DNA of 64,000 nucleotides from Alphaproteobacteria bacterium (lineage in GTDB: Bacteria; Pseudomonadota; Alphaproteobacteria; TMED109): contig JAJDYI010000062.1 in NCBI GenBank assembly GCA_022825235.1, positions 1 through 64,000 on the forward strand. Reading direction: 5' to 3'. Position 1 is the stretch's first letter, and each line of letters opens with the position of its first letter. Made by a program: the position numbers and the translations under genes. The notes under the pieces are model-generated. The model searched no databases and was not told where the DNA came from. It saw only the letters and a list, made by a program, of their open reading frames with translations. This document shows, one piece after another, positions 29,719 through 56,591 of this stretch.

Positions 29719-29719
29719 C

Positions 29720-32833: not shown

Positions 32834-32914
32834 GCGAATGGTGCGCAGGACCCGCGATGCCTGGCGGACAAGAGGCTCCCGCGCACGTGCAATGACCATC
32901 CTGGGAGGCGCTCC

Positions 32915-33280: not shown

Positions 33281-33359
33281 GCGTCGGTCCCGACCGGCGA
33301 AGGCGCCGTCCGCCGCGATCGCCGGCCAACGAAATCGAGAGTGCCCCGGGGGGAATGCC

Positions 33360-34130
33360 ATGCCGAGCAAGCCGTCACCGCTGATCCTGACGCCGCCTCC
33401 GGCCCCGTCCACGGCCCCGCCGGCGCGCACAACGTCGGTCTTTTCCGGGGACCGGACGGTCGAAGCCCGGCCGTTCGAGCTCCCGGAGGCCCTGGTGCCG
33501 AACACCCGGCTGCAGATGGACGGCGTCGCGTTCCTCTCGCTGCTCCCCGGCGACTGCATCCCCGTGGCGTTTTTCGACCCCCAGTACCGGGGCGTCCTCG
33601 ACAAGCTGGGCTACGGCAACGAGGGAAAGACCCGCGGTCAGCGCCGGTCCGCGCTCCGGCAGATGACCGAGGGGACCATCAGGACGTTCCTCTCGGGGCT
33701 CGACCGGGTCCTGATTCCGTCCGGCCACGTGTTCCTGTGGGTCGACAAGTTCCACCTGTGCCAGGGCGTCCGGGACTGGCTGGAGGGCACGAAGCTCGAA
33801 ATCGTCGACCTCGTCACGTGGGACAAGGGCACCTTCGGGATGGGATACCGCACCCGGCGGCGCGCCGAATACTGCCTGGTGCTCCAGAAACGGCCGCGCC
33901 GGGCGAAGGGCGTGTGGAAGATCCACACGCTTGCCGACGTCGTTCGGGAGCCGGCGGCGGGGAAACGCGGCCATCCCCACGCGAAACCCGTCGACCTCCA
34001 GGGCGAGCTCATGGCCGCCGTGAGCCATGAAGGCGACGTTGTCATCGACCCGGCGGCCGGCTCGTTCTCCGTTCTGGACGCGGCAATCAGTCGCGCACGG
34101 ACCTTCCTGGGCTGCGATCTGGAGGGTTAG
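33360..34130 (+). CDS. Beta-class DNA methyltransferase (CcrM-like order)
   Basis: 256 residues. 'VAFFDPQYRGVL' (about 70-80) is motif IV (DPPY, here DPQY), and the SAM-binding motif 'VIDPAAGSFSVLDAA' comes near the C-terminus (about 228-242). This motif order defines the beta class of N6-A/N4-C methylases. 'GHVFLWVDKFHLCQGVRDWL' and 'MGYRTRRRAEYCLVLQK' lie between. No restriction endonuclease sits next to it, so it is probably a solitary methylase that could protect transferred DNA or regulate transfer. DPQY in place of DPPY is a variant seen in many plasmid methylases. ATG 33360 follows a purine-rich GGGGGGAA stretch. Confidence 0.85.
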   Translation: MPSKPSPLILTPPPAPSTAPPARTTSVFSGDRTVEARPFELPEALVPNTRLQMDGVAFLSLLPGDCIPVAFFDPQYRGVLDKLGYGNEGKTRGQRRSALRQMTEGTIRTFLSGLDRVLIPSGHVFLWVDKFHLCQGVRDWLEGTKLEIVDLVTWDKGTFGMGYRTRRRAEYCLVLQKRPRRAKGVWKIHTLADVVREPAAGKRGHPHAKPVDLQGELMAAVSHEGDVVIDPAAGSFSVLDAAISRARTFLGCDLEG

Positions 34131-34266
34131 GCCGGTGGTCGGCGCGAGGGATGCCCGCCGGAGAAGCGTTCGGCCGGCATCGAATCGGTGCAGGTGCAAG
34201 CCGGATGGACGGCGAAATCGACGAGAATCGTTCCGGTTGCGCCCGCAGTCCGCGCACGCCGGGGAC

Positions 34267-34282
34267 GTATGCTCGAGCATAC
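34267..34282. promoter_or_regulatory. Perfect 16-bp palindrome, copy 1
   Basis: GTATGCTCGAGCATAC is fully self-complementary and occurs twice, 98 bases apart. Half-site-like sequences follow at 34289 and 34298. Two identical symmetric sites in a non-coding region suggest binding by a dimeric regulator or partition-type protein. Confidence 0.75.
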
Positions 34283-34364
34283 CGGCACGTATGCTCGCGT
34301 ATGCTCCCGGGAACATGGGACGAAAGGGTCAATAAAAACAGAGAGCTGCCGCGCACGCTCGCAT

Positions 34365-34380
34365 GTATGCTCGAGCATAC
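34365..34380. promoter_or_regulatory. Perfect 16-bp palindrome, copy 2
   Basis: Second exact copy of GTATGCTCGAGCATAC. The 98-base centre-to-centre distance is about nine helical turns, which would allow looping between bound dimers; this last point is inference. Confidence 0.75.
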
Positions 34381-34430
34381 ACTCGTTCCAACACAGGTTT
34401 GGCGGCTCGGCGCGGTGAATGGCGCCAAAA

Positions 34431-34446
34431 GTGCCCGTCAGGGCAC
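34431..34446. promoter_or_regulatory. Hairpin with 6-bp stem
   Basis: GTGCCC-GTCA-GGGCAC forms a perfect stem with a 4-base loop. It is followed by GCAAAAAG on the plus strand and by TTTT on the minus strand. It could be part of an oriT or a weak terminator for minus-strand transcription. Confidence 0.5.
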
Positions 34447-34564
34447 GCAAAAAGCGCGCATGCGCGCGCAAGCATTTTGATGCGTCGGGTGTGGGGAAAC
34501 TGCGCCTCTGGCGTAGAGAAATCGTACTGCGCCGCCGCATCCGTGAGACGCTGAAAACCTCTCA

Positions 34565-35115: not shown

Positions 35116-35197
35116 TCGAGTCTCGCACCTGCGCGGCCGGACAGCTCCCTGGCAAGCGAGCGTGCCGACCAGTGGAGGCTCGACTGGAGTCAGACGG

Positions 35198-38100
35198 ATG
35201 ACCGGAACGACAACACGGCTGGCGGCAGCAGTGGAGGCGTACTGCGCCGATCTTGGACGGGTGCGCGCGTCGGGCGGCGCGACCGGCGAACGGTCGAGCT
35301 ACGGGCCGCTCAGCGTCCTGCTCAACGCTGTCGGCGCGGCGCTCAAGCCGAAGGTGTTTTGTGTCGGCGAGCTTGCCGACCAGGGCGCCGGCCATCCCGA
35401 CTTCGGCCTCTACACCGCCAGGCAGGTGCAGCGGGGCCGGCCTCGGAAGGGGCAGGTGCCGGAGCGCGGCGTGATCGAGGTTAAGCCGGTGGAAGACGAT
35501 GCCTGGCTCACGGCGGAGGGCGACCAGGTCAGCCGTTACTGGGGTCGCTACCGGCTGGTGCTCGTGACCAACTTGCGCGACTTCGTATTGGTGGGCGAGG
35601 ACGCCGACGGCAGGCTGGCGAAGCTTGAGACATTCCGGCTGGCTGGCAGCGCAGATGAATTCTGGCGCAAGACGGAGAAACCGCGCGCCTTCGCAGGCGA
35701 GGTCGGTGCAGGTCTCGGCGAATACCTCGCCCGTGCCCTGTCGCACCGGGCCACGCTTGCGGAGCCCAGGGACCTGGCGTGGCTGCTGGCTTCCTACGCG
35801 CGTGACGGGCTGGCACGGGTGAACGCAGCGGGCGATGCGCCGGCCCTGGCCACGGTACGGTCGGCGTTGGAAGAGGCGCTCGGCGTCCGCTTCGAGGGCG
35901 ACAAGGGTGAACGCTTCTTCCATTCGACGCTGGTGCAGACGCTGTTCTACGGCGTGTTCGCTGCGTGGGTGCTGTGGGCGCGTGGTCAGCGATCCGACGT
36001 AGGCCCGCTGTTCGAAGGTGCCCCTGCTTCCCGCCGATTCGACTGGCGGACGGCGGTATGGCACCTCCGTGCGCCGGTGCTGCGAGCCTTGTTCCAGCAG
36101 ATGTCCGACCCTGGCCGTCTGCAACCGCTGGGCCTCGTCGAAGTGCTGGACTGGACCGCCGCCGCGCTGGACCGGGTGGACCGCCCGGCATTCTTCACGC
36201 GGTTCAACGAAGGCGACGTGGTGCCGTACTTCTACGAGCCGTTTCTTGAGGCCTTCGATCCCGCCCTGCGCAAGCAGCTGGGCGTTTGGTACACGCCGGC
36301 GGAAGTCGTGCGCTACATGGTCGCCCGCGTTGACAAGGCACTGAAGGATGATCTCGAAATCCCTGACGGGTTGGCGGCTGAGAACGTCTATGTGCTCGAC
36401 CCGTGCTGCGGGACCGGCGCCTATCTGGCGGAGGTGCTGCGCCGTATCGCGGACAATCTCGAAGGGCAGGGCCTCGGTGCCCTCTCCGGTGCGCGGGTGA
36501 AACAGGCGGCCATCGAACGGGTGTTCGGTTTCGAAATTATGCCTGCACCCTTCGTCGTTGCGCATCTGCAGGTCGGGCTCACCTTGCGGGAGCTTGACGC
36601 ACCGTTGTCGGACGATGGAACCGAACGGGCCGGGGTGTTCCTGACCAATGCCCTGACCGGCTGGGAGCCAACTACCAACAAGCCGCTGCCGTTCCCTGAG
36701 CTCGAAGAGGAGCGCGACCGTGCGGAGCGCATCAAACGGGAAACACCGATCCTCGTGATCCTTGGCAACCCGCCGTACAACGGCTTCGCCGGGATGGCGG
36801 TGAACGAGGAAAGGGAACTGTCGGAGGCATACCGCTCGACAAAGCGCGTGCGCAGGCCCGAGGGGCAGGGGTTGAACGACCTCTACGTGCGCTTCTTCCG
36901 CATGGCGGAGCGGCGCATCGCGGAGAAGACTGGTCAAGGTGTCGTCTGCTTCATCTCCAACTATTCGTGGCTCGACGGCCTCTCATTCACTGGGATGCGG
37001 GAACGCTACCTGGAGGCGTTCGACACGGTGCGGATCGACTGCCTGAACGGCGACAAGTACAAGACCGGCAAGGTCGCGCCGGACGGCACGCCCGACCCCA
37101 GCATCTTCTCGACCGAGGGCGACCCGGTCGGCATCCAGGTCGGCACCGCCATTGCGACGCTGGTGCGCAAGGCGGCGCACACGCGTGCGGAGGCGGTCGA
37201 GTTCCGGCATTTGTGGGGACAGGCGAAACCCACCCAACTGATCGAGACGGCCGAGTCGGAGCCGGATGCGCTTTATGAGACTGTCGAACCCGTCCTGCCG
37301 CTCGGGCTGCCATTTGTACCAACGGCAGCGAGCGCGGACTGGTTCGACTGGCCGACGCTGCCTGATCTATTCCCGGTGTCGTTTCCGGGCGTCAAGACCA
37401 GCCGGGACGGATTTCTCGTGGATACCGACCTCGACCGGCTTCGGGCTCGGATGGACGGCTATTTCGACGCGACGTTGAGCCACGAAGAAATCGCTTCACG
37501 TTATCCTTCCGCCATGAAGACCACGGCGCGATTCGACGCGCGCGGGGTCCGCAGTGCGCTGCTGAAGCGCGGCGGGCCTGACGAGACAGGCTTTGCCAGA
37601 TTCGCCTATCGTCCGTTCGACATCCGCTGGCTCTATTGGGAGAAGGACTCGAAGCTGCTCGACGAGAAGCGTGCCGACTACCGGCCCCATGTGTTCGAAA
37701 AAAACGTCTGGATCGAGGCACGCGAGCGAGAAGCCAAGGAAGACTTTTCACGCGGAACTCTGGTTCGACATTTGGCCGACAATCTCGGCAACGGGCTTTC
37801 CAGCTATTTTCCCGCATGGCTCCGCGATGACGGCATCGGCGATGAAGACGCCGCCGCGTGCCGCCCCAACCTTTCCGCCACCGCACAGCGTTATCTCGAC
37901 CGCCTCGGCCTCGGCATCGAAGACCTGTTCCTCCACGTCCTCGCCACTCTGCATGATCCGACCTATCGCGAGGCCAATGCCGGGGCGCTTAGGATGGAAT
38001 GGCCGCGCATCCCGCTGCCGGACTGGCCGGGTGGAATGGCCGAAGGGGCGGCGGAGGATCTCTCGAAATCAGCGGCACGCGGTCGGGAGCTTGCTGCACT

Positions 38101-38578
38101 ACTCGATTCCGATGCGCTGGTTCCTGGCGTAACGCAGGCACCCCTTCGCCCGGAGATCGCCGTCATTGCCGTTCCAGCTACTGTGAATGGTCGTAACTTG
38201 GTGGACGACGATTTCGTCGTGACCGCGGGATGGGGGCATTTCGGCCAGGGCGACGCGGTCATGCCGGGCCAGGGCCGCGCCGTCGAGCGTGCCTACACGG
38301 AGGCCGAACGAGCCGTTATGGGCGAGGCGCTGCCTGCTCTCGGTAACACGACTTTCGACATTTATCTCAACGGCGAGGCATTCTGGTGCAACGTCCCCGC
38401 CGCCGTTTGGCAGTACTGCCTCGGCGGCTATCAAGTGTTAAAGAAGTGGCTCTCCTACCGCGAGAGCAACATTATTGGTCGGGCCCTCATGCCCGAGGAG
38501 GTTCAACATGCGTCGGAAGTATCGCGGCGCATATCCGCAATCATCCTGAGCATCTACCATAGCTGTAACGAAAAATGA
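35198..38578 (+). CDS. Type ISP-like restriction-modification enzyme without helicase
   Basis: 1,126 residues. The N-terminal 200 residues have a possible nuclease-like core ('GHPDFGLYTA' ... 'RGVIEVKPVEDD', a D...ExK arrangement). The gamma-class adenine methylase follows: 'YVLDPCCGTGAYLAEVL' (motif I, about 400) and 'VILGNPPYNGFAG' (motif IV, about 523). The C-terminal half resembles the Type ISP specificity domain and ends 'FDIYLNGEAFWCNVPAAVWQ', 'GGYQVLKKWLSYRES', 'LMPEEV'. The well-studied LlaBIII class carries an SF2 helicase between nuclease and methylase; none is seen here, so this is the shorter helicase-free form. ATG 35198 has GGAG 9 bases upstream; GTG 35162 is the alternative. 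It overlaps the next gene by 4 bases. Confidence 0.85.
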   Translation: MTGTTTRLAAAVEAYCADLGRVRASGGATGERSSYGPLSVLLNAVGAALKPKVFCVGELADQGAGHPDFGLYTARQVQRGRPRKGQVPERGVIEVKPVEDDAWLTAEGDQVSRYWGRYRLVLVTNLRDFVLVGEDADGRLAKLETFRLAGSADEFWRKTEKPRAFAGEVGAGLGEYLARALSHRATLAEPRDLAWLLASYARDGLARVNAAGDAPALATVRSALEEALGVRFEGDKGERFFHSTLVQTLFYGVFAAWVLWARGQRSDVGPLFEGAPASRRFDWRTAVWHLRAPVLRALFQQMSDPGRLQPLGLVEVLDWTAAALDRVDRPAFFTRFNEGDVVPYFYEPFLEAFDPALRKQLGVWYTPAEVVRYMVARVDKALKDDLEIPDGLAAENVYVLDPCCGTGAYLAEVLRRIADNLEGQGLGALSGARVKQAAIERVFGFEIMPAPFVVAHLQVGLTLRELDAPLSDDGTERAGVFLTNALTGWEPTTNKPLPFPELEEERDRAERIKRETPILVILGNPPYNGFAGMAVNEERELSEAYRSTKRVRRPEGQGLNDLYVRFFRMAERRIAEKTGQGVVCFISNYSWLDGLSFTGMRERYLEAFDTVRIDCLNGDKYKTGKVAPDGTPDPSIFSTEGDPVGIQVGTAIATLVRKAAHTRAEAVEFRHLWGQAKPTQLIETAESEPDALYETVEPVLPLGLPFVPTAASADWFDWPTLPDLFPVSFPGVKTSRDGFLVDTDLDRLRARMDGYFDATLSHEEIASRYPSAMKTTARFDARGVRSALLKRGGPDETGFARFAYRPFDIRWLYWEKDSKLLDEKRADYRPHVFEKNVWIEAREREAKEDFSRGTLVRHLADNLGNGLSSYFPAWLRDDGIGDEDAAACRPNLSATAQRYLDRLGLGIEDLFLHVLATLHDPTYREANAGALRMEWPRIPLPDWPGGMAEGAAEDLSKSAARGRELAALLDSDALVPGVTQAPLRPEIAVIAVPATVNGRNLVDDDFVVTAGWGHFGQGDAVMPGQGRAVERAYTEAERAVMGEALPALGNTTFDIYLNGEAFWCNVPAAVWQYCLGGYQVLKKWLSYRESNIIGRALMPEEVQHASEVSRRISAIILSIYHSCNEK

Positions 38579-39312
38579 ACGCATCAAACGTAAGTGACAA
38601 AAGGAAGATTATACTGTTTTTTGTGAAATTCTTCTCCAAGAAGAATTACGCATGCGAATTCATGCGGGGAAAAGTCTATGCTAATAGAATTTCCTACTTC
38701 AAGGACATTGAAGGAACGGATCATTCTGGTCGGGCTGACAGACACGAGGGTACAATTGGCTGGTTTCAGCCGAACCAGGGCAGACTCAAGATAAATGAGA
38801 TGGAAATCACGGGTGATCTTGCAGGACCAATTGAGATGCAGAGGGAATGGTTGAATTACAGAAATATGTTCTGCGTACATGCGGCCCATACAGGTGATAT
38901 AGATTTGGGTAACCTTTCTGTCCCCAACGTCGAAGACCTGAGAAGACAGTTAGAATTGTCAGAAGACTGTCTGAAACTCGGTAAATTCGCGGTTGTGATC
39001 AAGAATATACCGGAATTTGTGAAACGGATTGAGGCGGCTTCGGAACAAAAAGGTTATCGGCTGTCTCGCGGACTGGTGAAATATTATAATCCAGATACAT
39101 TTCACGGCAGTTTTTCGGACTGGGAAGCTGTTTTCAGGAAACGAGCAGAATATCAGTGGCAGCAGGAATATCGCTTCATCATCGATACTCTTGTTGTTGG
39201 AGACTGGCCAATTGTTCTTGAGATGGGCGACATACGAGACATCGCATCATGTTTCTACGCTTCGAAGATTAACGAGGAACTATTGGGCGGAGAGATTAAG
39301 TTCCTCTCGTAA
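38575..39312 (+). CDS. Unknown protein coupled to the Type ISP gene
   Basis: 245 residues from an AT-rich gene, in sharp contrast with its GC-rich neighbour. No family was named, but 'FFSKKNYACEFMRGKVYANR' followed by 'ISYFKDIEGTDHSGRADRHE' recalls a group of uncharacterised proteins found near defence genes. 'YQWQQEYRFIID' near the C-terminus is another conserved-looking motif. No membrane segment or signal peptide is seen. The start ATG overlaps the stop of the Type ISP gene (ATGA), so the two are translated together and the product may be an accessory of that system. The base composition suggests separate acquisition. Confidence 0.75.
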   Translation: MNASNVSDKRKIILFFVKFFSKKNYACEFMRGKVYANRISYFKDIEGTDHSGRADRHEGTIGWFQPNQGRLKINEMEITGDLAGPIEMQREWLNYRNMFCVHAAHTGDIDLGNLSVPNVEDLRRQLELSEDCLKLGKFAVVIKNIPEFVKRIEAASEQKGYRLSRGLVKYYNPDTFHGSFSDWEAVFRKRAEYQWQQEYRFIIDTLVVGDWPIVLEMGDIRDIASCFYASKINEELLGGEIKFLS

Positions 39313-39747
39313 GGGAACTTCATTGACGCCCCCAAAACCTTCCCCGCTGCCTCGAGAAAGTGCGCAACAGCAAGGCGGGAGTAGCCCGAGGTCGTGCCAC
39401 CGCTTCGATTCCTGAATAGCGTAACCGACCAAGAGAAGGTCTTCGCGCGCCGAGACAGCCTGACCCAATGCGATCTGGCGAAGATGATGCACCCGAAGTC
39501 TGCCCAGCTTGGCGTCCGTGCAGGCCGTCCGCCAGCAAGCGGCAACGCTGAGCATCGCTGCATGTACCGCTGCCTTCAGCACAGCGCGAACAGCAACGCA
39601 TCACGGTTGCCCGCACGGTGCAGCGCAACGATGTACGTGGGTGCGGCATGGTCGGACGCCGCCGTCCGCTGGCCGGTTTTCGCATCAAAGATGGATTGCA
39701 TCGGTTCCAACGGCTCGGCAGCGCAGATTAAGCACGTCGCTACAGCG
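39313..39747. other. Gap, probably degraded coding sequence
   Basis: About 435 bases without a convincing gene. Open frames on both strands lack motifs. Because the next segment is a decayed Type ISP C-terminus in the plus orientation, this stretch may be older remains of the same gene, but I could not align it by eye. Confidence 0.4.
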
Positions 39748-40022
39748 ACACCCGGTGACGTGCGCACAGCAATGGCTGACGCTGCGGCTGCGGTAGGTGG
39801 CGCGACACTTGACATCTAACCAATGGTGAGCCGTTCTGGCGCAATGTCATCGCCATCGTCATAACCTACCGGAACGACAGCTACCAACTTCTGACGAATT
39901 GGCTCTCGTGCCGAGTGCGCGATATCTTTAGCTGGCGTCTCATGGCAGAAGAAGTCGTAGAGGTCGCGGAACTGGTTCAGCGGATTGGTCCAACATCGGT
40001 ATGGAACATAAGCTCTCGGTAG
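39748..40022 (+). pseudogene. Remnant of a second Type ISP C-terminal domain
   Basis: Two frames joined at about 39817 read 'TAMADAAAAVGGATLDI' and then 'NGEPFWRNVIAIV', 'YQLLTNWLSCRVRDIF', 'RLMAEEVVEVAELVQRI'. They align residue for residue with the end of the intact Type ISP protein 1.4 kb upstream ('AVMGEALPALGNTTFDIYLN', 'GEAFWCNV', 'YQVLKKWLSYRESNII', 'LMPEEVQHASEVSRRI'). A frame change at the TAA near 39817 and the loss of everything upstream make it a pseudogene. The two copies differ at many positions, so this is an old or separately acquired relative and not a recent duplication. Confidence 0.75.
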
Positions 40023-41053
40023 CGCAGGCGGTGGTGGTCCCGCCGGTGTACTCGTTGGAAGTTGAATGGCCATCCAACATTGGCGCCGCGATCGCCCGTT
40101 CGGCAGAGGCCTTCAGGGCAGTTGTTGCTAAAGCCGCCCTCGTGCGCTCGGAGGAGGTCGAGCGGCTATCCAGCATCGGCGCTGCCGTGGCCCGTTCGGT
40201 GGAGGCGTCCAGGGGAGTCTTTGCTACAGCTGCCCTCGTGCGCTCGGAGGAGGTCAAGGGGCTATCCAGCATCGCCGCCGCCGCGGCCCGTTCGATGGAG
40301 GCGTCCAGAGGGGTCTTTACTACAGCTGCCCTCGCGCGCTCAGAGGAAGTCAAGCGGCTATCCAACATTGGCGCCGCCATTGCCCGGTCGGTAGAGGCAT
40401 CCGCCTTCTGTGCCGTCTCCGGCAGCGTCGTGCGCATGGGCGATGCCCGTCGGAACTCTATCGCTGCTGACGAGCGCGATGAAGCGGCCATGCGTGCCGT
40501 CCTCAATCCGGATTTGGCAGCATTTCCGCGCGCTACCTATCCTGGAGTTCTCTTCAGCACAGGATTTAGGCTGTCCATCGCGTCAGTGCCTGTGCCACAA
40601 GCAATCGAGGAACCTGATGCTGGTGCAGGGTTCAATCCACATCACTGGCAAATTCTTAATGCCTTGGAGCAGAGACTGCGGCAAGTAGTGGAGCAACGCC
40701 TGGAGGATCTTTCTGGACCAAATTGGATTAGGCAAAGAGTACCGCAGACCGTGCGCGAGCGTTGGCTGGCTCGGCAACAAGAAGACCGCGTCAGTGGAAG
40801 ATCTGTCTATGGTGAGATCCAATATGCAGATTTCATGGATTTGGCAGTAGTAATTGCAAAGAGCGACAATTGGCGTGAAGCGTTTCAGTCAATCTTTAGG
40901 GATCGAAATGAAATTGCGGTGTCACTTTGTCGACTGCACCCTGTGCGGAAGGCACTCGCACATAGCCGTCCACTTGGTCGCGCAGATGTATTGACATTGG
41001 TTGGCGAAGCGACTCGAATTTTCCATGCCTTGGGGATGAGAGTGCTGCACTAG
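40001..41053 (+). CDS. HEPN-domain protein with 32-residue tandem repeats
   Basis: 350 residues. Residues 25-136 are three full and one partial copy of a 32-residue repeat (core 'GAAVARSVEASRGVFATAAL' then RSEEVxxLS), probably a helical spacer. The C-terminal domain (about 220-350) resembles Swt1-type HEPN domains: 'WIRQRVPQTVRERWLARQ' then 'WREAFQSIFRDRNEIAVSL' and 'VRKALAHSR', whose R-x4-H is the HEPN catalytic pattern. HEPN proteins are usually RNases in defence or toxin systems. ATG 40001 overlaps the end of the ISP remnant by 22 bases. There is no strong ribosome site, so the gene may once have been coupled to that ISP gene. Confidence 0.7.
   Translation: MEHKLSVAQAVVVPPVYSLEVEWPSNIGAAIARSAEAFRAVVAKAALVRSEEVERLSSIGAAVARSVEASRGVFATAALVRSEEVKGLSSIAAAAARSMEASRGVFTTAALARSEEVKRLSNIGAAIARSVEASAFCAVSGSVVRMGDARRNSIAADERDEAAMRAVLNPDLAAFPRATYPGVLFSTGFRLSIASVPVPQAIEEPDAGAGFNPHHWQILNALEQRLRQVVEQRLEDLSGPNWIRQRVPQTVRERWLARQQEDRVSGRSVYGEIQYADFMDLAVVIAKSDNWREAFQSIFRDRNEIAVSLCRLHPVRKALAHSRPLGRADVLTLVGEATRIFHALGMRVLH
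40073..40408 (+). repeat. 96-bp tandem repeats inside the HEPN gene
   Basis: Copies at 40073-40168, 40169-40264, 40265-40360 and a partial one at 40361-40408. They are similar but not identical at DNA level (for example GCGCTCGGAGGAGGTC recurs). In-frame unit length means copy number could change without breaking the gene. Confidence 0.85.
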
Positions 41054-41078
41054 GAGATCGGATGCCGGAGTGGGATCC

Positions 41079-42029
41079 ATGTTCGCCTTAGAAAATTCAG
41101 GAGGCCGCCGAAGAGCCTCTGTTGGCGATATGGAGCTAGAAATCATCGATATTGATGAACGCGGACACGTGACAGCAGAATGTGACTACGTAGCGCTTTC
41201 CGAGGCTTCATTCGATGCATTTCCGGAGTCGTTTTCGGTGCGTGTGCATAGCTCAGATGGTTTCGGCACATTCCTGTTTCATGAGGCGGAGATTTTCAAA
41301 GAAAATAGCGGCGAAATAATAGCTGACTACATCTGCCATCAACCTAACAAATTCTGGGAAAGGACATGGGGCCTAACCACTTTCTTGGTTGCAATTAAGG
41401 ACCAAGTTACATTCTGTAATGAAGTGAGTGTCACCGATATTGAAGTAGACGATGACTTTAAGCAGTTGACGCTGAGAACAGCTCTTCAAGGGGTTTCGGC
41501 TGCGGAAGCGTTAAGGGGAGGCGCAGATAGACTGAAACATATTATCCGTGAGGCAGAAATCGCTTTGGGCGGCAAGGTGTGGAAGCCGAATTACGCTGCC
41601 AATGAGCGAGCATTTTGCGAGGAAGTCTTGGCCCCACTTCTAAGGCGGATGCAATTCATGTCCGTAAGGTATACGCAAGGCGATCGTGAGTACGGTAAAG
41701 ACTTCACCTTCTCTGAAGTGACCCCGTTCGGAGCAATGAGGCATTACGGTCTTCAAGCAAAAGCAGGGGACATAACAGGAGAGGTGAATTCCCTCATCGA
41801 CCAAATTGTGGGTCAAGCAGAAGACGCGTTCAAGATGCCATACTACGATTTGTCGTCTGCTGAGCCCCGATACATTTCGACGTTTGTCGTCGCAGCAAGT
41901 GGGCGTTTTACCGCCAACGCTCGAGAAAAGATAATTCACAAAACACCTCGTGGCCTTCACGGATCGATGCTCTTTCTGGATCGGGAATCAATCCTTGAAC
42001 TTGTGGAGAGATATTGGAAGACCGCCTGA
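41079..42029 (+). CDS. Protein with Mrr-like QxK nuclease domain
   Basis: 316 residues. The first 150 residues are beta-rich and unrecognised ('MELEIIDIDERGHVTAECDY'). The C-terminal part has 'NERAFCEEVLAPLLRRMQF', 'REYGKDFTF' and 'HYGLQAKAGD', a D...QxK pattern as in the Mrr branch of PD-(D/E)xK nucleases, so it is probably a DNA-cutting domain. The gene begins 25 bases after the HEPN gene in the same direction, and 116 bases separate it from the STAND gene. ATG 41079 is chosen; an in-frame GTG at 41070 is possible. GC content is lower than in the transfer genes. Confidence 0.68.
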   Translation: MFALENSGGRRRASVGDMELEIIDIDERGHVTAECDYVALSEASFDAFPESFSVRVHSSDGFGTFLFHEAEIFKENSGEIIADYICHQPNKFWERTWGLTTFLVAIKDQVTFCNEVSVTDIEVDDDFKQLTLRTALQGVSAAEALRGGADRLKHIIREAEIALGGKVWKPNYAANERAFCEEVLAPLLRRMQFMSVRYTQGDREYGKDFTFSEVTPFGAMRHYGLQAKAGDITGEVNSLIDQIVGQAEDAFKMPYYDLSSAEPRYISTFVVAASGRFTANAREKIIHKTPRGLHGSMLFLDRESILELVERYWKTA

Positions 42030-42145
42030 TACGAGTGTCGACAGTGCACCGCCAAGTCAAGCGCTTACGAAGATAGCAAAATGAACTACCTGCCACATCT
42101 CCCAATTCTTGAACGATCAGCACTACAGAGTGCTGGATCTTGAAC

Positions 42146-45100
42146 ATGCCAGATCGCACATCTGCCGCAGGTGGGGCTAACGCGGCACTCGACGGATTCG
42201 AGTACCAGCTAGGCGTCTCGGTGCTAGCAGCCCTACAGCTGATGCTGATTACGAAGTCGTCGACACGGATCACACTTGAACCTGCCAACGAAGAAGACCT
42301 GGAGGCTGATCTCGAACCAACCACGCCAGGCCGAGTGCAGCCTAGCGCCAATGTCGCTAAGGGCTACAAGATTGTCGTGCAGGTGAAGCTCCGTAACAGT
42401 GGGCCTTGGACGATCGAGGCCTTTAATTCACTGCTGAAACACGGCACGACTCGCGAGCCGGCCAGACACCATCTTGAGCATCCTGACACACGCTACCTGA
42501 TGATCACCAACGCTGACGCCACCGGCGTGGCTCGCAATCTGTTGGTCAACGGCCTGGAAGAGTGGCCGGAGGATAAGGTCATTCCAGCTACTCTGTCAGC
42601 GATCTTACCCCATGAACCAGAAGGTCGGATCGCGATCTGGGGCGTTCTGACCGAGCCCCTTCTGGATCTGAAGATAAACGACGTACTTAGCTCTTTGCTT
42701 CGGGTGCCCAAGAGCCGGCAGATGGAATGTCGGGAGCGCCTAAGGGACGAGGCACTTCGGCGAATGCGCGGAACGAGTCCAGGCGTGTGGACGCGCGAGG
42801 ACCTGCTGAGCGTCATCCGTGGCTGTGGAGGTTCCTTGGCCAGCGCTCCGGAGCTCGAGTCGTTCGTGCCGCCAGCGAACTATCAGGACCTGAAGGATCT
42901 ACTCCAACGCCGGAACGCTCTTGTTATCACTGGGCCGTCAGGTACAGGCAAGACCCGTACGGCGCAAGCGCTTGTCGATCTGGCGCGACATCGACCCTCA
43001 CCGCCAGAGATCATTGAGCGCAATGCCAGCCACGACCCATCGAGTACGCGAGTGCTGTCCGACACCGGTCCAAAGCTCTTCTACGTCGAGGATCCGTGGG
43101 GACAGTCCAGTCTCCGGGACGGTGCCGACGCCTGGACCGAGCAACTCCCCCGGTTGTTACGCGAGGCGCATGCCGGGCGTCAGTATGTGGTCACATCACG
43201 CACAGACATGCTCGCGCAGGCTAGGGCCGACCGGCGCCTCGATCGTTGGACGGTCGTGCTGGACGCTGATCAATACCGCGATGGTGAACTCGCAGACATT
43301 TACGACAAACGCCTCGATCTGTTGGCACCGGATCTGCAGGCCAAGGCGCTGGACTTCCGGGCGGAGGCTCTGGACGCGCTAGAAACGCCGCTCGAAGTCG
43401 ACCTGTTCCTCACCAGCTTGGCATACGGCCCGAAACCGGGTGAGGTTGATCCTGCCTTCTTCCGCCGCATTCTTGCACTGGCACATCGCGACGCTGTAGA
43501 AGACGTGGTTGTTTCCTACCTGCGGAACGAAGATCGAACCGGCGCATCAGCAGTCGTATGGGTTCTGCTAGCGGCGAGATCGCAGTTCGACCGCAGTCAG
43601 CTGGTCAACCTGAACCGTTGGCTGCGGACCGTCGATTTAGCCTTTAGCGACGGGCTCGGGAAGCTGGTGGACCGGCTCGTCGCCACGCGTCATCTCCGCC
43701 AGCCCGGCCAGATCGTTAGCTTTTCACATCCGAGCGTCCGCGCGGGCTTCGAGGTGTACGTCAAGGAGAATTGGGGTCGTAGCGAAGCTGCCCTGATATC
43801 ACTGATTTCCGCTTTGACTCAGGTCTGCGGTTCCCATCGGGACTGGGCACTCGAAACCGCAGCCCGTTCGCTACAGGCAATCGCCGATCTCATCTCCGGC
43901 ACCGAGAGTCTTGATGCGGAATTTCAAGCCGAGAGCTCCAGTCATGCGGCGATTGACGCATGGCTGGAAAAGAGCTTGGCTGATCCGCGCGCCGATTTCC
44001 GATCTGTGCTGCAACTGGCGTCCGATGTGGGCACGCAGACATCAACCCCGTCAGAACTTGCGAGTTGGTTCATCAAGGGTATCCGGCGTGGAGGTCAATG
44101 GTTCCTCGATCGTTGGGAACCGCCGACGTTCGACGATGCCTAGTATACGCGGGTCTCGGCTGATCCACGGTCTTTCACAATCGCAGATAGGTATGTTCGC
44201 GAACAATTGCCGCGGGAGCGGGACAGCGTCGGCGATGATTTTGCGAACCAACTCGATCGAATAGCGAGTGGCCTTACGCCGGCCTTTGTCGCCGCGGCGC
44301 GCAAGCTGGTCGCCTCTGGTTATGAAACTAATGTCGGCGCGGTGGCGGCCGGGGCGGTGCGGGATCTCGATCGCTATGGAGAGGTGCTTGCTGCGGCGCT
44401 CGACGAACTAGCCAGCATTTCTCGGTCGTATGAGCGGGAGGGTAGGGAGCAATTGCGCGCGATTGAGGACGGAGAATGCGATGAAGCCTATGAGGAGAGC
44501 TTTAGATGGCAGCACGAAGGTGACGGCTATTGCGCTGACGTTCTCGTTGCAGCCTATGTGAGAAAGGTCAGGTCACTCAACCACTGGCAGACACTGGCGG
44601 TACATTCCCGGGTGTCTGAGCTGGGCCGTGCATGGGCTGAGGACATTGCCCGCACGAACGGCTCGGTCACACTGGAGGAGCTTAGGGCCGTCATCGCTGC
44701 TACGCGGTCAAGCGAAGACGAAGAGCATGCTTGGGAAGCGGCCCGCCAGCATTGGCAAGCTTCGCTCGCCGCCGACCTTGAACAGCGGATCCTTTCGGTT
44801 CCGGATGACGACGGCCTGCGCGCAGCACTTATCCATTGCGCCTTGACTGCATCACCAGCCACGCTGGCCCTCTGCCTCGAGCAATCATCCTCGGCACCGG
44901 CAACTTTCGTCCACCTCCTAGTGGATATGCATGCAGCGTATCGCCAGATTTCCAGCAAGACGCGCGAGCGGCGCCTGCGGCCGCTCCTTGAGTCGATTCC
45001 GAATGCTGGCAAGGAGATATTCCGGGCTGTAGCCACCAACGACAAGCCTCCGCCCTCTGTCGGACTGTCGGCCCTATCCCTGCTGGATGAAGCTGCGGAG

Positions 45101-46126
45101 ACGGTGCCGCCCTTCGTCCTCGACAAGATCGTGCCGGTGATGATCGCCAGTGGTTCCGCCCCTTCGGCTGCCATTCGACGATGGCTCCTTGCGGCCAAGG
45201 GCCATCGACTTGCGAAGGCTGCCGTCGAAGCCGCAACTCGCATTCAGGACGACGCGCTTGTGTCGCTTGGGCTTGACCATGCGCGAGCAGACGCTCGCGA
45301 GGCGGCGCTTGTCCACCTCGCGAACTCCTCGCCAGATCCGCTGCCGCAGCAGCTTCTGGAACTGGCATCCGATCCCGGTAGCCGGGTCCGGCGCGGCTTG
45401 GTCGGCATCCTTGCAGCTCGGCCCCATCCGAACCATCAGAGCGTGCTCCTCCAATTGATCGACGACGAATGGTCCGACGCCGACTTATCTCACAATGATC
45501 CGCCTTCCTATCCGATCGCGCGTGAGGCAATAAGCGGGCTCGCTGCCTACGACAGCCTGTCGGATGAAATCGGGGAAGACTTGTTGCTTCGAGCCGAGCG
45601 CACGGATGACCGCTTGCTCGGCATCATCGCGCTCGACACTGCCGCGCGATGTTGCGGCCCAGCAATCCGCAGGAGGATATGGACCCTGTCCTTCCTCGAC
45701 CAGCCCCGTTGGGTCCGCGTCGACGCAATCGATGCCTTGAACAAGGCGGATGTCGTCGAAAGCGACATTTTGGGTGCGATCACCGGCAAACTTCTTTTGC
45801 GACTGGCGCCGCCTCTGGCCGCCTCCGCTTGCGTACTATTGTCGAATCACGGACGAGCCGACGCTGTGATTGAGGCGATGGAGCGGGTTGCGCAATCGAC
45901 GAAGAGGTGCGCTCTGCTGTTGTTAGGCGTCAATTTCCTTGCCGACCGCGACCGCCCCGCCGCCAACCGTCTGCTGGCATTGCTCGCCCCAGATCACCCT
46001 GCGCGGCGACTGCTCGAACTCGAAGATGGCGAGCAGTTGCCGAAGACGGCGCTCGACAGTTTGGGACACATCCGTATTCGAAATGCGGTCCAGCGCTGGC
46101 TCGATGATAAAATCGCCAAAGATTGA
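42146..46126 (+). pseudogene. Avs-like nuclease-STAND-HEAT protein interrupted by an in-frame TAG
   Basis: One frame of 1,327 codons is broken only by TAG at 44141-44143 (codon 666). N-terminus: 'ALDGFEYQLGVSVLAALQLM' and 'YKIVVQVKLRNSGPW' (D/E...QxK) look like a DUF4297/Cap4-type nuclease. Then a STAND NTPase: Walker A 'NALVITGPSGTGKTRTAQAL' (about 253-272) and 'PKLFYVEDPWGQSSL' (Walker B). After the stop the same frame continues as plausible protein ('DPRSFTIADRYVREQLPRER') into a helical HEAT-like C-terminus with sensor-type layout, ending at 46126. The downstream part has only a weak TTG start (44207). Known relatives are single proteins with nuclease, STAND and repeats, so this looks like a nonsense-mutated phage-sensing gene. 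Two separately translated proteins or a sequence error are alternatives. Confidence 0.72.
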
Positions 46127-46281: not shown

Positions 46282-47496
46282 CTATGCAGGGCCTTGCGCA
46301 AGCAAGCGAATAACGAATCGTTCGTCCAGTTCGACTAAGTCAGGTTCAGTGCCGTTGTGCTCTCTCATGCCCCTAACGATTTTCCGGGGAATCCCCATCC
46401 CCATGTGTTCCAGATACCGATAGTCGCGCATCACGTCTTTCAATAGCTGATTTCGTGCAGATCGGGTCCCAAACCGCATACGGTCAGGCGTTATCCCATT
46501 GGGCAGCCGGCCCGGCGAGATAATCTCCAAACGGTTGCTATAGACGGCTAATTCGATATCGGTGCTTGTGAGTAGGTAATCTCGGTGAATCAGGGCGTTG
46601 ACGATGCCTTCGCGAAGGGCATCGTGGGGGTAGACCGGACGCTCCACGCGTCTTCCACCTCGTGCCTCGACCTCCATACGCGTGTTGCGTTGCACAAAAT
46701 CCAGAGCCTGCTCGACGAGACCGTTTTCAACGAAATCGTCACCTTGACTCAGCAAAGGAGTCATGGGGCCGCGAAGTGCCGTACGCTCTTGCGCGTCGTA
46801 GCCCTGGTCCGATCCGGGATAGGCGACGGCGTCTATCCCCGCATGCGGCAGAAATCGGTTCGGCGTCGCGCCGAATAACAGCATGCCACCGACCGTCACG
46901 CCTTCCTCGGTCATCACCTCGGTGTTGATGAGAAGTGACTGCCAGGCTTCCTCATCTTCGTCGTCCGGCACATCCTGCTGGCGGATATCGCCGAAGTAGT
47001 TTCGCAGACGCCTCCGGTCCAGGTTCGCGAGTGTAGCGCCCGATACGGGCCGAAGTTCGGCCCGTACGGAACCTCTTTGCTGAAACAGGCGTGCAAGTTC
47101 CTCCTGGGTTGCTTCCCTACTCTGTGTACCGACACGTATCTGATACTTGTTGGAGTTGTTGTGCCAGAGCGCATGCACGTCGTAGCCGCGAGTCACGCGG
47201 ACAACGGCAACGTCGTGATTGTCTTTGACACCCCGAACCATTTCGAAGAAGGGAATGATCGCTGGTCTGATTTTGTCGCGGCATACATTCATCACCCATT
47301 CTTCGAGGTCGGACCGCATCAGGCCCGTGATTGTTCCGTCATCTTCGACGCCAAGCAGCACCGTGCCGCCTTGAAAATTCGAGAAAGCTACGAGCTCCTT
47401 CGCGAGATTCAGCGTGCTTAGATCATCCCTCTTGAATTCCACCCCGGAATTCTCGCCGCTCGCTATGATTTCCAGCAATTCGGTGAGCGTCGTCAT
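46282..47496 (-). CDS. AlbA_2 / Schlafen-like DNA-binding ATPase
   Basis: 404 residues. 'ENSGVEFKRDDLSTLNLAKE' and 'LVAFSNFQGGTVLLGVEDDG' are the AlbA_2 (Schlafen AlbA_2) domain. The C-terminal 'LREGIVNALIHRDYLLTSTD' and 'LEIISPGRLPNGITPD' are the GHKL-like ATPase (HATPase_c_4) that usually follows, with a final winged helix. Such proteins are predicted regulators, some in defence loci. The start ATG is 3 bases after the stop of the PHP-SMC gene, so the two form a minus-strand operon. It converges with the STAND gene. Confidence 0.85.
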   Translation of the reverse strand: MTTLTELLEIIASGENSGVEFKRDDLSTLNLAKELVAFSNFQGGTVLLGVEDDGTITGLMRSDLEEWVMNVCRDKIRPAIIPFFEMVRGVKDNHDVAVVRVTRGYDVHALWHNNSNKYQIRVGTQSREATQEELARLFQQRGSVRAELRPVSGATLANLDRRRLRNYFGDIRQQDVPDDEDEEAWQSLLINTEVMTEEGVTVGGMLLFGATPNRFLPHAGIDAVAYPGSDQGYDAQERTALRGPMTPLLSQGDDFVENGLVEQALDFVQRNTRMEVEARGGRRVERPVYPHDALREGIVNALIHRDYLLTSTDIELAVYSNRLEIISPGRLPNGITPDRMRFGTRSARNQLLKDVMRDYRYLEHMGMGIPRKIVRGMREHNGTEPDLVELDERFVIRLLAQGPA

Positions 47497-47499
47497 GTC

Positions 47500-50196
47500 T
47501 CAGAACCCGTACTTGGAGCGGCGCATCTCGAACGCGGCCTTTCCGCCTTCGAGGATTTCTTCGACCAGTTCGCGCACAGGTCTGGAGTCGATGGAGGCCA
47601 TATGCTTCGGAGCGATCCGCGCTTGGCCTTCCCTGGCCTCGCCGGTCGCAGCGAGCCCGAGGATGAGTTCGGCATCGCCGAGGACCGGAATGTTGGCGTT
47701 GTGCGTCGAGAAGACGAACTGGCGGCGGCGCTTTTCCTGCCGCATGATCGGAACCACGCCCTCCGTGATGAAGCGGTTGTCAAGATCGTCTTCGGGCTGA
47801 TCGACAACCAGCGGCGCTTCCGATTCAAGCAGCAGGAGCAACAGAACGGCCGTTGCTTTTTGGCCTGTCGATAGCGCTTGAAGCGTTTGCCAATTGGTCG
47901 GTGCCCCGTCGGGAGCCGTGTTTAGTTCAATCTCTGTTGTCGCAGGTAATTCCAGCTCTTCGATACGCATGAACAGGTCTAGATCGGCTTGCGCGATCCG
48001 CTCGGCCGCACCGGACGGCAGACTGTAGTGCTTCCTGAGGGCTTCCTTGCCCTCCCGGCACCGCTGCGCAAGTTCCGGCAAAGACAGCTGGTCGAGTCCG
48101 CGCAGGCGATCTAGCGCGGCGGCAAGATTGCCGCCGACCTCGCGCAAGAGCCGTTCGAGCGGCTCACGGTTTCCGGCCATCGTGACCCTTACATGCACTC
48201 GGTCGCGGAGCTTCCGGGATACCCGCTTTGCCGCGGTCTCGACTTGCCTGTACTCGGCTGCCTTGATGTCTTCCCACTCGGCCAAGAGTTTGCGGCGCTG
48301 GGCCTCGTGCGCATCCAGATCGCGCCTGAGGCGTTCCATCTGGTCGTTCAGCGGGCGCAACTCCTCAATTTGCTGGCGAAGCTGGATGAATTCCGCGCCG
48401 TCGATCTTCGATTTCTGGAGTTCACGCAGGACTTTTTCGTAGGTTTCCTCGATTGAGGTCTTGCGCTCGTTCCAGCGTAATTTGGTCTGCGCAATCGCGT
48501 GATCGGTTTCGGCAAGAGCCTTGCCGAACTGTTCACCGAGTGTCTCCAGTTTCGTGCTTAGCGTTTTGAGGATTCCCTCGATTTCGGAAAGGATGTCGGA
48601 GTTCGGCAGCCCTTCCAGGGCCTTGCTGGTAACGAACGCTGTATCGACGGGTAGACCCTCGGTGAGTTCATTGCGGAGGGTACGGTACTGGTCAAGCCGT
48701 TCCTCCAGGTTGGCGAAGAGCCGTTCTTCACGAACGAGCAGGCTCTTTTCCTTCAGCCGTCCTTCGAGCCCGGCCTGCTGGAACCGCATTTGTGTCTCCT
48801 CGAGACCCGGTAGCGCCGCAAGTCGCTCGTCGAGGTGCTGCAGCTCACGGCGCACATCCATGATCCGGCTTCGGGAACGCTCCAGTTCCAAACATACTTG
48901 GGTTTTTCGTCCCGAAAGGGTTGGGTCCCAGTCAACGAAGCGCTCCAGTAGCAGCGTAAGTTTCTCGCGACTCTTCGTGAGTTCGGAAATTTCGTGCTGC
49001 CCGAAGACCTCCACACCCGGCATCACGTCACGTGGGGACAAGGTCAGGACTTCCCCCGCTTCGTCCTTCACCACGGGCGGATTCGGCACCGATCTTTCAA
49101 CCGTGTAGCAACGCACCGACGGCTTGTGTGACCGCACAAGCAGCGAGACCTTTGTCCCTGGTTGCAGGACGTGGCGGATCACACCCTCGTGGGCCTTCCG
49201 AGCTTCCTCGCCGAGAGGATCGAGACCGAGTGCGTAGCGTATGCTCTCGATCATCGTCGATTTGCCGGTGCCCCGTCCACCTACCAACACATTCAGGTTT
49301 TCATTGAATTGCACGGCCGTGTCGCGGAGGAACCCGCCTTCCCAGGTCATCGCAAGGAACTCGGCATGAGGTTCGGGCTTCAGATCGCTGTGTAGACGGA
49401 CCCGGGAATCCGGGTCGAGAAACGCCTGCCGGAAAGCTTCCACCGAAATGGTAGACATCTTGATGAAGCAAGAGGCGCCGTCTTTCTTCAGGTCCTCTGG
49501 GCCATTGACGTCCGAAGCGTTGAGGATCGCGGGGGGGCGGTCGCGTTTGTGCGCGGCGTCCTTGTTTCGGAGGATCGGTCCGATCCCCTCTGGCGCGTCA
49601 CCAACTGAACCCGGCAGCGCGCAGGCCAGCAGGTCGGGATGGGTCCAGACATTGACCCTCGATTGACCCGACAGCTTCCTCAGCAACCCGCCTTCGGAGG
49701 CTACATGGGCGGCAATGCATACCGCGCCCCAGCTCTTCGCGGCTTCAAGCAGCTCAATGGAATCCTTGCTGCCAGTTGGTGACGGTTGATCGGTGTCGTG
49801 AATGCCGCACTCCCCGATGAAACGCTCCAGAACTTCGTCCTTGTCGGGATCGAACAGGCACAGGAAATGAACACCGTCCTTCGTAACGGCTTCGAAACCA
49901 CTGAATGCATGGAGATTCGCATTGCGCGCAGCGCGCACGAGGCGTGCAGAGTGCTTAACGCGGTAGTGATCCGTGACCGCGATTGCCTCGATGCCGATCT
50001 CAAGGCAGGCCTCGATGATCGCCGTGTTGTATTCGTCTTCCGACTGGAAGGAGGACGCCTTCTTGTGCGTCTCAAGATAGGCGAACGGATTCACTTGCAA
50101 GGCGCAGCGGTAGAACCGCGCACCATCCGGTAACTCGAGTGCGGCTTTCATGCGATCCGAGAGCGGACGCGCCAGGCTGTTGGCCTCTGCGGTCAT
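47500..50196 (-). CDS. TrlF-type PHP phosphoesterase fused to SMC/RecF-like ATPase
   Basis: 898 residues. The N-terminal PHP-like domain has 'AIAVTDHYRVKHSARLVRAA' (about 73-92), 'VCIAAHVASEGG' and 'NVWTHPDLLACALPG'. An ABC/SMC head follows: Walker A 'LNVLVGGRGTGKSTMIES' (about 303-320), a coiled-coil region (about 425-700), the signature 'ALSTGQKATAVLLLLLLE' and Walker B 'PLVVDQPEDDLDNRF'. This is the TrlF-family architecture, predicted to couple ATP-driven DNA or RNA sensing to a PHP hydrolase. It lies upstream of and is co-oriented with the AlbA_2 gene, a pairing that suggests a two-gene defence module. Start ATG 50196 is clear from the domain start. Confidence 0.85.
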   Translation of the reverse strand: MTAEANSLARPLSDRMKAALELPDGARFYRCALQVNPFAYLETHKKASSFQSEDEYNTAIIEACLEIGIEAIAVTDHYRVKHSARLVRAARNANLHAFSGFEAVTKDGVHFLCLFDPDKDEVLERFIGECGIHDTDQPSPTGSKDSIELLEAAKSWGAVCIAAHVASEGGLLRKLSGQSRVNVWTHPDLLACALPGSVGDAPEGIGPILRNKDAAHKRDRPPAILNASDVNGPEDLKKDGASCFIKMSTISVEAFRQAFLDPDSRVRLHSDLKPEPHAEFLAMTWEGGFLRDTAVQFNENLNVLVGGRGTGKSTMIESIRYALGLDPLGEEARKAHEGVIRHVLQPGTKVSLLVRSHKPSVRCYTVERSVPNPPVVKDEAGEVLTLSPRDVMPGVEVFGQHEISELTKSREKLTLLLERFVDWDPTLSGRKTQVCLELERSRSRIMDVRRELQHLDERLAALPGLEETQMRFQQAGLEGRLKEKSLLVREERLFANLEERLDQYRTLRNELTEGLPVDTAFVTSKALEGLPNSDILSEIEGILKTLSTKLETLGEQFGKALAETDHAIAQTKLRWNERKTSIEETYEKVLRELQKSKIDGAEFIQLRQQIEELRPLNDQMERLRRDLDAHEAQRRKLLAEWEDIKAAEYRQVETAAKRVSRKLRDRVHVRVTMAGNREPLERLLREVGGNLAAALDRLRGLDQLSLPELAQRCREGKEALRKHYSLPSGAAERIAQADLDLFMRIEELELPATTEIELNTAPDGAPTNWQTLQALSTGQKATAVLLLLLLESEAPLVVDQPEDDLDNRFITEGVVPIMRQEKRRRQFVFSTHNANIPVLGDAELILGLAATGEAREGQARIAPKHMASIDSRPVRELVEEILEGGKAAFEMRRSKYGF

Positions 50197-50925: not shown

Positions 50926-51078
50926 GTGGCCGTCATTCCGGTTGGCTATGAGTTTCGCGCACACCCAAAAGGCCTAAGAGCGCTGAAGTCTCGGACGACC
51001 GTGTCAGCCAAGTTATCAACTATTGATGCCACGGAGCGTATAAAGGCAATTGGAAGACGTTTGGAAGACTGTGAATGA
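50926..51078 (+). CDS. Small unknown protein preceding the HD/GHKL gene
   Basis: A 50-residue basic frame from GTG 50926 ('VAVIPVGYEFRAHPKGLRAL'), open upstream to GTG 50830 (82 residues). The only evidence that it is real is its end: the TGA overlaps the ATG of the next gene by 4 bases, as in a translationally coupled pair. No family was recognised and no ribosome site is obvious. Confidence 0.35.
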   Translation: MAVIPVGYEFRAHPKGLRALKSRTTVSAKLSTIDATERIKAIGRRLEDCE

Positions 51079-55403: not shown

Positions 55404-56591
55404 TCAACTGCTTGAGGCAATTTGCACTGTATCCAGGTCGTTCTCGATGCTGTCGCCGATACGCGCCGCCGACGCCTTCACGGTATCGCGGGCAAGGTGA
55501 GCGTACCGGGCAGTGGTTTGAACTTGTGTATGGCCCAGCAGCTTTCCGATCATCGGCAGGCCTTCGCCTAGTGCCAGCGCGCGCGAGGCGAAGCTGTGCC
55601 TGAGATCATGAATGCGCACGTCGTCGAGACCGGCACGTGCCCGGATACGCCGCCAAGGATGCTGAAGGTCGGTGAGATGGGAACCGGGCTTCCTGCCTGC
55701 GATCACCCAGGGATTGTCCTCTTCGCGGGGCAGTCCGGCCAGCAGTCTCACCGCCGACGGCGCCAGCGGAACCGCCCGGCCGCCCGTCTTCGTGTCGGGC
55801 AGGTTCAGTTCGCTGGCTTTGAGGTCGACGTGCTCCCAGCGCAGCTTCTGGATTTCGGAGAGCCGGCAGCCGGTGAGCATCAGCAACCGGACCGCGGCGA
55901 CCGCCGAGCGGGTTTCGGAGCCGTCCTCGAGGATGCCGTCGAGAACCTTGCCCAGGCGCCGGAACTCCTCGGCGCTCAGGAACCGCTCGCGCTTCTCCTC
56001 TCTGAACCGCTTGACGTGCAGGCAGGGGTTCGAGCCGTCGGGACGCAGCCCCCACACCTCGGCCATGTTGAACATCTTCGACAGCACGCCGAGCGTGCGG
56101 TTGGCCTGATAGGGCGTCTTGCGCATGCCGTGGTGCAGTGCGGCGATGTCGCTCCGCTGGATTTCGGTCACCTTGCGGCGGCCGATTTTGGGCTTGATGA
56201 AGAGGTCGACCGACCGCCGGTATTCATAGGCCGTGCTGGGCTTGCAATACGTGGGGACGTACTCCTCCAGGAAGCGTGCCCCGAGGGCCTTCACGGTCGC
56301 CGTCCTCCGGTCGGTGTCGCGTTGCGCCGCCGGGTCGCTACCGGACTTGGCCTCGGCAAGCAGGGCCATCGCGCGCCGGCGCGCCTCATCCGGCGGGAGT
56401 GCGGTGACGGGTCCGAGGGTCATACGGCGGAGCCGGCCGTTGGCGCGGAACTGGCTAACGAAGAATTTGCGGCCCGAGGCCCGGACGCGCAGTCCGAAAC
56501 CCGGCAGCTCGCGGTCCCAGTAGAAGCGGTCGGACCCGTCGCTCTCGATGCGGTCGACAGTGCGTTTGGTGATCTTGATCTGCGCCGGCAT
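55404..56591 (-). CDS. int: Tyrosine recombinase / integrase
   Basis: 395 residues, the P4-type layout: an N-terminal DUF4102-like arm-binding domain ('YWDRELPGFGLRVRASGRKF'), a core-binding domain, and the catalytic domain with Arg in 'LLMLTGCRLSEIQKLRW', Lys in 'LPDTKTGGRAVPL', H-x-x-R in 'IHDLRHSFASRAL', His in 'LLGHTQVQTTARYAH' and the Tyr in ARYAHL. All catalytic residues are present. It begins 217 bases inside the tRNA-derived attachment site and reads away from it, as element integrases do. It probably integrates and, with the HTH protein at 10067, excises the element. Confidence 0.95.
   Translation of the reverse strand: MPAQIKITKRTVDRIESDGSDRFYWDRELPGFGLRVRASGRKFFVSQFRANGRLRRMTLGPVTALPPDEARRRAMALLAEAKSGSDPAAQRDTDRRTATVKALGARFLEEYVPTYCKPSTAYEYRRSVDLFIKPKIGRRKVTEIQRSDIAALHHGMRKTPYQANRTLGVLSKMFNMAEVWGLRPDGSNPCLHVKRFREEKRERFLSAEEFRRLGKVLDGILEDGSETRSAVAAVRLLMLTGCRLSEIQKLRWEHVDLKASELNLPDTKTGGRAVPLAPSAVRLLAGLPREEDNPWVIAGRKPGSHLTDLQHPWRRIRARAGLDDVRIHDLRHSFASRALALGEGLPMIGKLLGHTQVQTTARYAHLARDTVKASAARIGDSIENDLDTVQIASSS

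Follow-up and report, generated by a model that had tools for sequence, protein, structure and literature searches.

The question raised by this locus is whether three consecutive defence-like genes make up one anti-phage system or are simply neighbours. The genes lie on the plus strand, at 40001-46126 of a 64,000-nucleotide (nt) stretch of contig JAJDYI010000062.1 from an alphaproteobacterial genome (GCA_022825235.1); this whole stretch is referred to as the window. A first-pass annotation had proposed that a HEPN gene, a QxK gene and a STAND gene follow each other here, either as a single system or as neighbours in a hotspot. All three genes are present in this order, and their proposed identities (a HEPN protein, a QxK-type protein and a nuclease-like STAND protein) are borne out by Pfam and PADLOC profiles and by sequence motifs:

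40001..41053, plus strand: Swt1-like HEPN protein of 350 amino acids (aa), with the HEPN domain at about residues 213-345 and the motif R316-x4-H321
41070..42029, plus strand: QxK (Mrr-like PD-(D/E)xK) protein, 319 aa from a GTG start, the N-terminal ~165 aa having no relatives in the collections searched
42146..44140, plus strand: first part of the nuclease-like STAND gene, with an acidic motif and QxK followed by an nSTAND3 NTPase
44141..44143, plus strand: single in-frame TAG interrupting the STAND gene, the frame being the same on either side
44144..46126, plus strand: second part of the STAND gene, with a weak HEAT match, in the unchanged frame

The evidence favours the second of the two proposed readings. 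Very probably, the three anti-phage genes were acquired independently of each other as cargo of a hotspot that adjoins an F-type conjugative backbone, and are not one system. The cluster as such is ordinary and offers two modest curiosities: the variation of repeat length in the N-terminal arm of the HEPN protein and the orphan N-terminus of the QxK protein. Recognizing the suspected new system as most likely a hotspot assembly avoids a misleading claim at the level of the cluster, and the three genes are still of interest singly.

Relatives of the three genes at other loci

To assess co-occurrence, we compiled loci coding for relatives of each protein. The HEPN set consisted of 25 loci: all 12 genome-contig loci found by two peptide patterns and 13 of the 20 plasmid records (H34, H35, H38, H40, H48, H49 and H50 were left out). 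The STAND set consisted of 13 loci (12 of 15 plasmid records, without H59, H62 and H65, and one genome locus, G155), and the QxK-like set of six (two of 37 plasmid records and four genome loci of only 2.3-3.4 kb each). Partners were searched for in these loci with phmmer and tblastn (E 1e-3). No QxK or STAND relative was found near a HEPN relative (0/25), no HEPN or QxK relative near a STAND relative (0/13) and no HEPN or STAND relative near relatives of the QxK C-terminal domain (0/6). Based on these counts, we rejected the one-system reading. The first-pass annotation had taken separate occurrence in most genomes as evidence against a single system. Separate occurrence is what we find in the examined loci for HEPN and STAND, and for QxK it is seen through the relatives of its C-terminal domain. 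The 20 HEPN, 15 STAND and 37 QxK-like plasmid records, compared over their complete listed rows, overlap in a single record (NZ_CP048816), in which STAND (around 29-31 kb) and HEPN (around 89 kb) are about 58 kb apart.

The remaining surroundings of the HEPN relatives are variable. Defence genes close to them differ from locus to locus: OloA/OloB (Olokun) in L022, Avs2 in L010 and Shedu in L019; in other loci, such as L064 and L066, no annotated defence genes were found close to HEPN. When 11 other genes of the window (33-57 kb) were compared with the 25 HEPN loci and with L013 (E 1e-5), 10 had no match, and the window integrase had one distant match, in L062 (E 8.4e-9). L013, a 3,243-nt locus of the sibling genome G422, shows a weak partial HEPN match (39% over 83 aa, E 4.8e-4); it was kept outside the 25 loci, and none of the other window genes matches it.

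Several points weigh against independent acquisition. First, the HEPN relatives do have recurring neighbours: of 19 loci, seven contain recombinase-like open reading frames (ORFs) and six contain dcm-like methyltransferases, neither of which is QxK or STAND. Second, some flanks are small (downstream, 0 nt in L033, 861 nt in L032 and 1222 nt in L011; upstream, 54 nt in L024), and L028/L029 and L011/L061 are near-duplicates. Third, no whole-length QxK relative was found, and the QxK neighbourhood counts rest on relatives of the C-terminal domain. Finally, HEPN and QxK could be co-transcribed, since the gap between them is only 16 nt (25 nt if QxK starts at ATG 41079) and a terminator scan detected no plus-strand terminator-like site in between. 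As for the first of these points, the recurring recombinase and dcm-like neighbours, as well as the distant integrase match, leave the question of HEPN, QxK and STAND untouched.

A recombinase gene directly adjoins HEPN in 9 of the 25 loci. It is a serine recombinase in L006, at a distance of 83 nt, in L027, as a piece of 81 aa, in L028-L030, with overlaps of 4 nt, and in L031, where the HEPN match is only partial and the spacing is accordingly approximate; all these assignments except the annotated L006 were made by blastp clustering. In L011, L061 and L062 (a 4-nt overlap in the last) it is a tyrosine recombinase. Dcm-like cytosine methyltransferase ORFs are present in L006, L007, L021, L022, L030 and L031, and adjoin HEPN in L006, L007 and L030.

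The STAND and HEPN proteins

The STAND ORF opens at 42140, with ATG 42146 as the likelier start. Its first part matches nSTAND3 (E 6.5e-17) and, over residues 239-362 of the NTPase, the PADLOC candidate PDC-S73 (E 1.1e-5). At the N-terminus, in a region without any profile match, all six aligned sequences share the pattern EPxx(E/D)ED(L/I)E ... QxK; going by this motif, the N-terminus may be a nuclease. The HEAT repeats proposed for the second part have weak profile support (HEAT_2, E 0.024, below the cutoff), to which the annotation of three STAND relatives as 'HEAT repeat domain-containing protein' can be added. A PDB sequence search with the first part (42146-44140) returned no match. The order of effector, STAND NTPase and helical C-terminus resembles that of Avs (AVAST) proteins, especially Avs5, for which nSTAND3 is also reported (PMC12931631). 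Unlike Avs5, which has a Sir2-like N-terminus, the window protein features a QxK nuclease-like one. It also differs from Avs proteins in carrying an internal stop and in being unmatched by the PADLOC Avs models (none at E<=1 for either half). The STAND gene is of an Avs-like kind, most likely coding for a sensor-nuclease, and is probably inactive in the window copy because of the in-frame TAG.

Is the gene really lost? Its relatives have an uninterrupted ORF of 1320-1446 aa in 10 of the 13 loci; the Caulobacter rhizosphaerae plasmid gene of L015 is an example of an intact relative. In the other three (L056, L059 with 337 aa and L060 with 309 aa) they are truncated or split; in L056 the halves are separated by IS3 and IS66 transposase genes. 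The presence of such broken copies in the family makes a real loss plausible. Alternatively, the gene could be active, if the stop arose in assembly or is bypassed by readthrough. The second part is indeed open for 639 aa. Identity to five relatives with full-length ORFs is 0.32-0.50 before the stop and 0.25-0.40 after it, and the resulting after/before ratio (0.73-0.80) falls inside the range observed among these relatives themselves (0.63-0.83). Since the ratio is within the relatives' own range, the second half is not visibly decayed, and therefore the stop either arose recently, or stems from an assembly error, or is bypassed by readthrough. We consider an active gene unlikely; it would be compatible with independent acquisition of the three genes.

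The HEPN protein matches the Pfam family HEPN_Swt1 (E 5.2e-9, 36.8 bits versus a cutoff of 27.5) and, over residues 216-330, the PADLOC model PDC-M34B (E 1.5e-14). The R-x4-H motif (R316, H321) is invariant in all nine aligned sequences, the window copy included. An AlphaFold model based on this nine-sequence alignment has a predicted local distance difference test (pLDDT) score of ~92 over residues 211-340 and of 30-46 over most of the rest, with long, low-confidence helices ahead of residue 211. In structure comparison (VIA) the best match was AbiF (Z 8.8, 3.3 Å, 140 aligned residues), followed by yeast Swt1 (Z 8.3, 2.9 Å, 110 aligned) and Csm6' (Z 8.1, 3.0 Å, 95 aligned). Seven of the 20 best rows are titled HEPN, and several of the other matches are HEPN proteins as well. 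According to the comparison tool's own caution, Z values below about 13 are commonplace among helical bundles, and Foldseek with the whole model gave no match at E<=0.001. Therefore, our fold assignment leans also on the profile and the motif. A PDB sequence search with the HEPN alignment returned only ribosomal protein uL29 (E 0.38). AbiF, Swt1, AbiA and MtlR (3c8g) are HEPN proteins according to PMC3710099.

The above-cutoff HEPN domain, the R-x4-H motif and the structural neighbours AbiF and yeast Swt1 place the protein close to the Swt1-like HEPN group (Pfam PF18731; the Abi2/Swt1 group of PMC3710099), described in that source from restriction-modification operons. The window protein differs from this group in having no fused ATPase, transmembrane or restriction endonuclease domain above the Pfam cutoff. 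It also has a helical N-terminus, which in 5 of 16 proteins carries tandem repeats with a lineage-specific unit length. As to the PADLOC candidate PDC-M34, the likeness consists in the matched M34B component. Judging from the candidate's name, an M34A partner would be its defining feature; none was among the matches listed for nine proteins of the island, and PDC-M34 was not found by name in the literature searched.

HEPN relatives were detected in plasmids (20 records) and at genome loci (12); phage records contained none, and the 40 pattern matches in viral contigs included no HEPN relative. The closest relative found, in L022, is 71% identical over the C-terminal 150 aa. Comparison with it (NG86, aa 158-350) gave 0.175 nonsynonymous (dN) and 1.68 synonymous (dS) substitutions per site, the latter near saturation. 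Because dN is far below dS for HEPN, and the STAND protein matches its relatives lengthwise, both are more than chance ORFs. For QxK the case for a real gene is weaker, as its sequence gives only a partial match.

The N-terminus of the HEPN protein is repetitive:

40046..40429, plus strand: 3.5-4 tandem copies of a 96-bp unit, each unit encoding 32 aa of the HEPN N-terminus

We asked how common such repeats are among 16 HEPN proteins (L021 was left out). In five of them the best self-match of the N-terminus beat all 100 shuffles, with a repeat unit of 32 aa in the window and in L022, 14 aa in L023, 12 aa in L024 and 38 aa in L006. In the other 11 it was tied with or below the best of 100 shuffles, and seven further HEPN proteins showed no N-terminal repeats (50 shuffles). 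In addition, all eight aligned relatives have a segment of ~60-75 aa immediately ahead of the HEPN domain that is missing from the window protein; the length of this segment depends on the alignment, as a broader one fills the stretch partly with repeat residues.

The missing segment, the STAND stop and a dead integrase upstream raise the possibility of decay, with HEPN as a shortened, non-functional copy and STAND as a pseudogene. Against this, the HEPN and QxK frames are both open, the HEPN motif is intact and the dN/dS of the HEPN domain versus L022 is ~0.10, a value that averages both lineages and involves a dS near saturation. Decay of this extent appears rather doubtful and, if real, would agree with independent acquisition. 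The HEPN protein most likely acts alone, as an R-x4-H RNase that would cleave RNA in infected cells and thereby bring about growth arrest or abortive infection, its variable helical N-terminus presumably serving as a sensing or oligomerising arm. This N-terminus, with repeats of different unit length at one place in some relatives, may be a fast-changing arm for sensing or spacing.

As AbiF, the best structural match, is bound to a non-coding RNA (ncRNA), we also considered ncRNA control of HEPN. This candidate was rejected: no Rfam family reaches the gathering score within 33000-57000, the upstream gap contains an integrase remnant, and in L028, L029 and L030 a recombinase-like ORF ahead of HEPN runs 4 nt into the HEPN ORF.

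The QxK protein and the question of a pair

The likelier start of QxK is ATG 41079, with a Shine-Dalgarno-like GGAG 8 nt ahead. Residues 183-289 match Mrr_cat just below the Pfam cutoff (E 0.0018, 18.8 bits versus 21), and the GKD...QxK motif is common to six distant relatives. Among plasmids, 37 records contain relatives of QxK; in the phylum sample, 4 of 397 other genomes do. These relatives align only over about residues 176-316, and the six examined carry a different N-terminus. The N-terminal half was described in the first-pass annotation as being of an unknown kind, which agrees with our finding that it matches no Pfam, PADLOC or NCBIfam family. Searches with the N-terminal 167 aa gave no match either in the class sample (384 other genomes) or, at E 1, in plasmids. 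With the whole protein, 27 other genomes of the order and the phages likewise yielded nothing, and viral contigs gave no peptide-pattern match. Thus, by sequence comparison, the QxK N-terminus is an orphan within the collections searched. A PDB sequence search with QxK returned no match, and a single-sequence fold prediction (pLDDT 32) was not used. The Mrr_cat-like C-terminus with GKD...QxK resembles Mrr/type IV restriction endonucleases. The sub-cutoff score and an N-terminus that matches nothing, unlike the N-termini of the C-terminal relatives, set the protein apart. Judging from its C-terminal motif, QxK most likely works by itself as a DNase of the Mrr/type IV-like sort, equipped with its own recognition domain.

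An alternative to fully independent acquisition is a two-gene operon, rare or of recent origin, that joins HEPN as the RNase to QxK as the DNase, STAND being a neighbour without any relation to it. In addition to the short, terminator-free gap noted above, the two genes share a strand, and GGAG precedes ATG 41079. Moreover, since the QxK N-terminus is present in no other genome searched, the QxK counts leave room for such a pair. On the other hand, the closest HEPN relative (L022) has a different next gene, and a detectable QxK relative is missing from all 25 HEPN loci. Taken together, we find the operon improbable. Very improbable, in our view, is its more specific form: a recently assembled defence operon combining an RNase whose N-terminal repeat array evolves by tandem duplication with a DNase that has an unprecedented recognition domain. 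The titles and abstract openings of the literature searched name no HEPN + Mrr + STAND system and no such two-gene anti-phage system.

One multi-effector system of all three genes, triggered by the STAND sensor, would be favoured by adjacency and common strand only and is barely credible, given that HEPN and QxK are both missing from all 13 STAND-relative loci, that the window STAND is interrupted and that a gap of 110-116 nt separates it from QxK. Promoter-like sites numbered 5, versus 2.2 in shuffles (standard deviation 1.4); one of them (41907-41935, plus strand) precedes STAND, a signal too weak to use.

Conjugative backbone and cargo

Independent acquisition is in line with the setting of the three genes. 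The G+C content is 67-79% in the first 33 kb of the window and 49-63% at 38-55 kb. Genes for TraH, TraG_N, a TrwB/TraD-type coupling protein and a TrwC relaxase (F-type conjugation) are located at 22-33 kb. The relaxase/methyltransferase part of this backbone (window 29675-34494) has a second copy within this genome, in contig C12 (29753-34494, 85%), and a further one in the sibling G422, in contig C46 (29675-33243, 81%), in both cases with other genes after it. The cargo of the window matches these two stretches only in integrase pieces. Likewise, the 35.2-46.5 kb region matches six sibling genomes only as pieces of up to ~390 nt. Two integrases were found, both on the minus strand:

39424..39759, minus strand: degenerate tyrosine-integrase remnant with internal stops (tblastn with a sibling genome's integrase, E 8e-14)
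55404..56591, minus strand: intact tyrosine integrase, located at the opposite end of the cargo (Phage_integrase, E 4.5e-23)

The remnant sits directly upstream of HEPN, between it and a gene pair that includes a type IIG restriction-modification gene. Integrases probably brought the cargo genes in.

In the upstream pair (35162-39312), the type IIG restriction-modification gene overlaps a gene for a 245-aa protein (38575-39312) by 4 nt; at E<=1 the latter is unmatched in Pfam, PADLOC and NCBIfam alike. Besides HEPN, QxK and STAND, the region between the two integrases codes for Schlafen/AlbA-HATPase, TrlF-family and HD-CE/Hsp90-like proteins. The Schlafen/AlbA-HATPase gene (46282-47496) adjoins the gene for the TrlF-family AAA-like ATPase (47500-50196, minus strand), which scores 497.6 bits versus an NCBIfam cutoff of 350. 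The third, an 867-aa protein (51075-53678), has both an HD-CE and an Hsp90-like ATPase domain.

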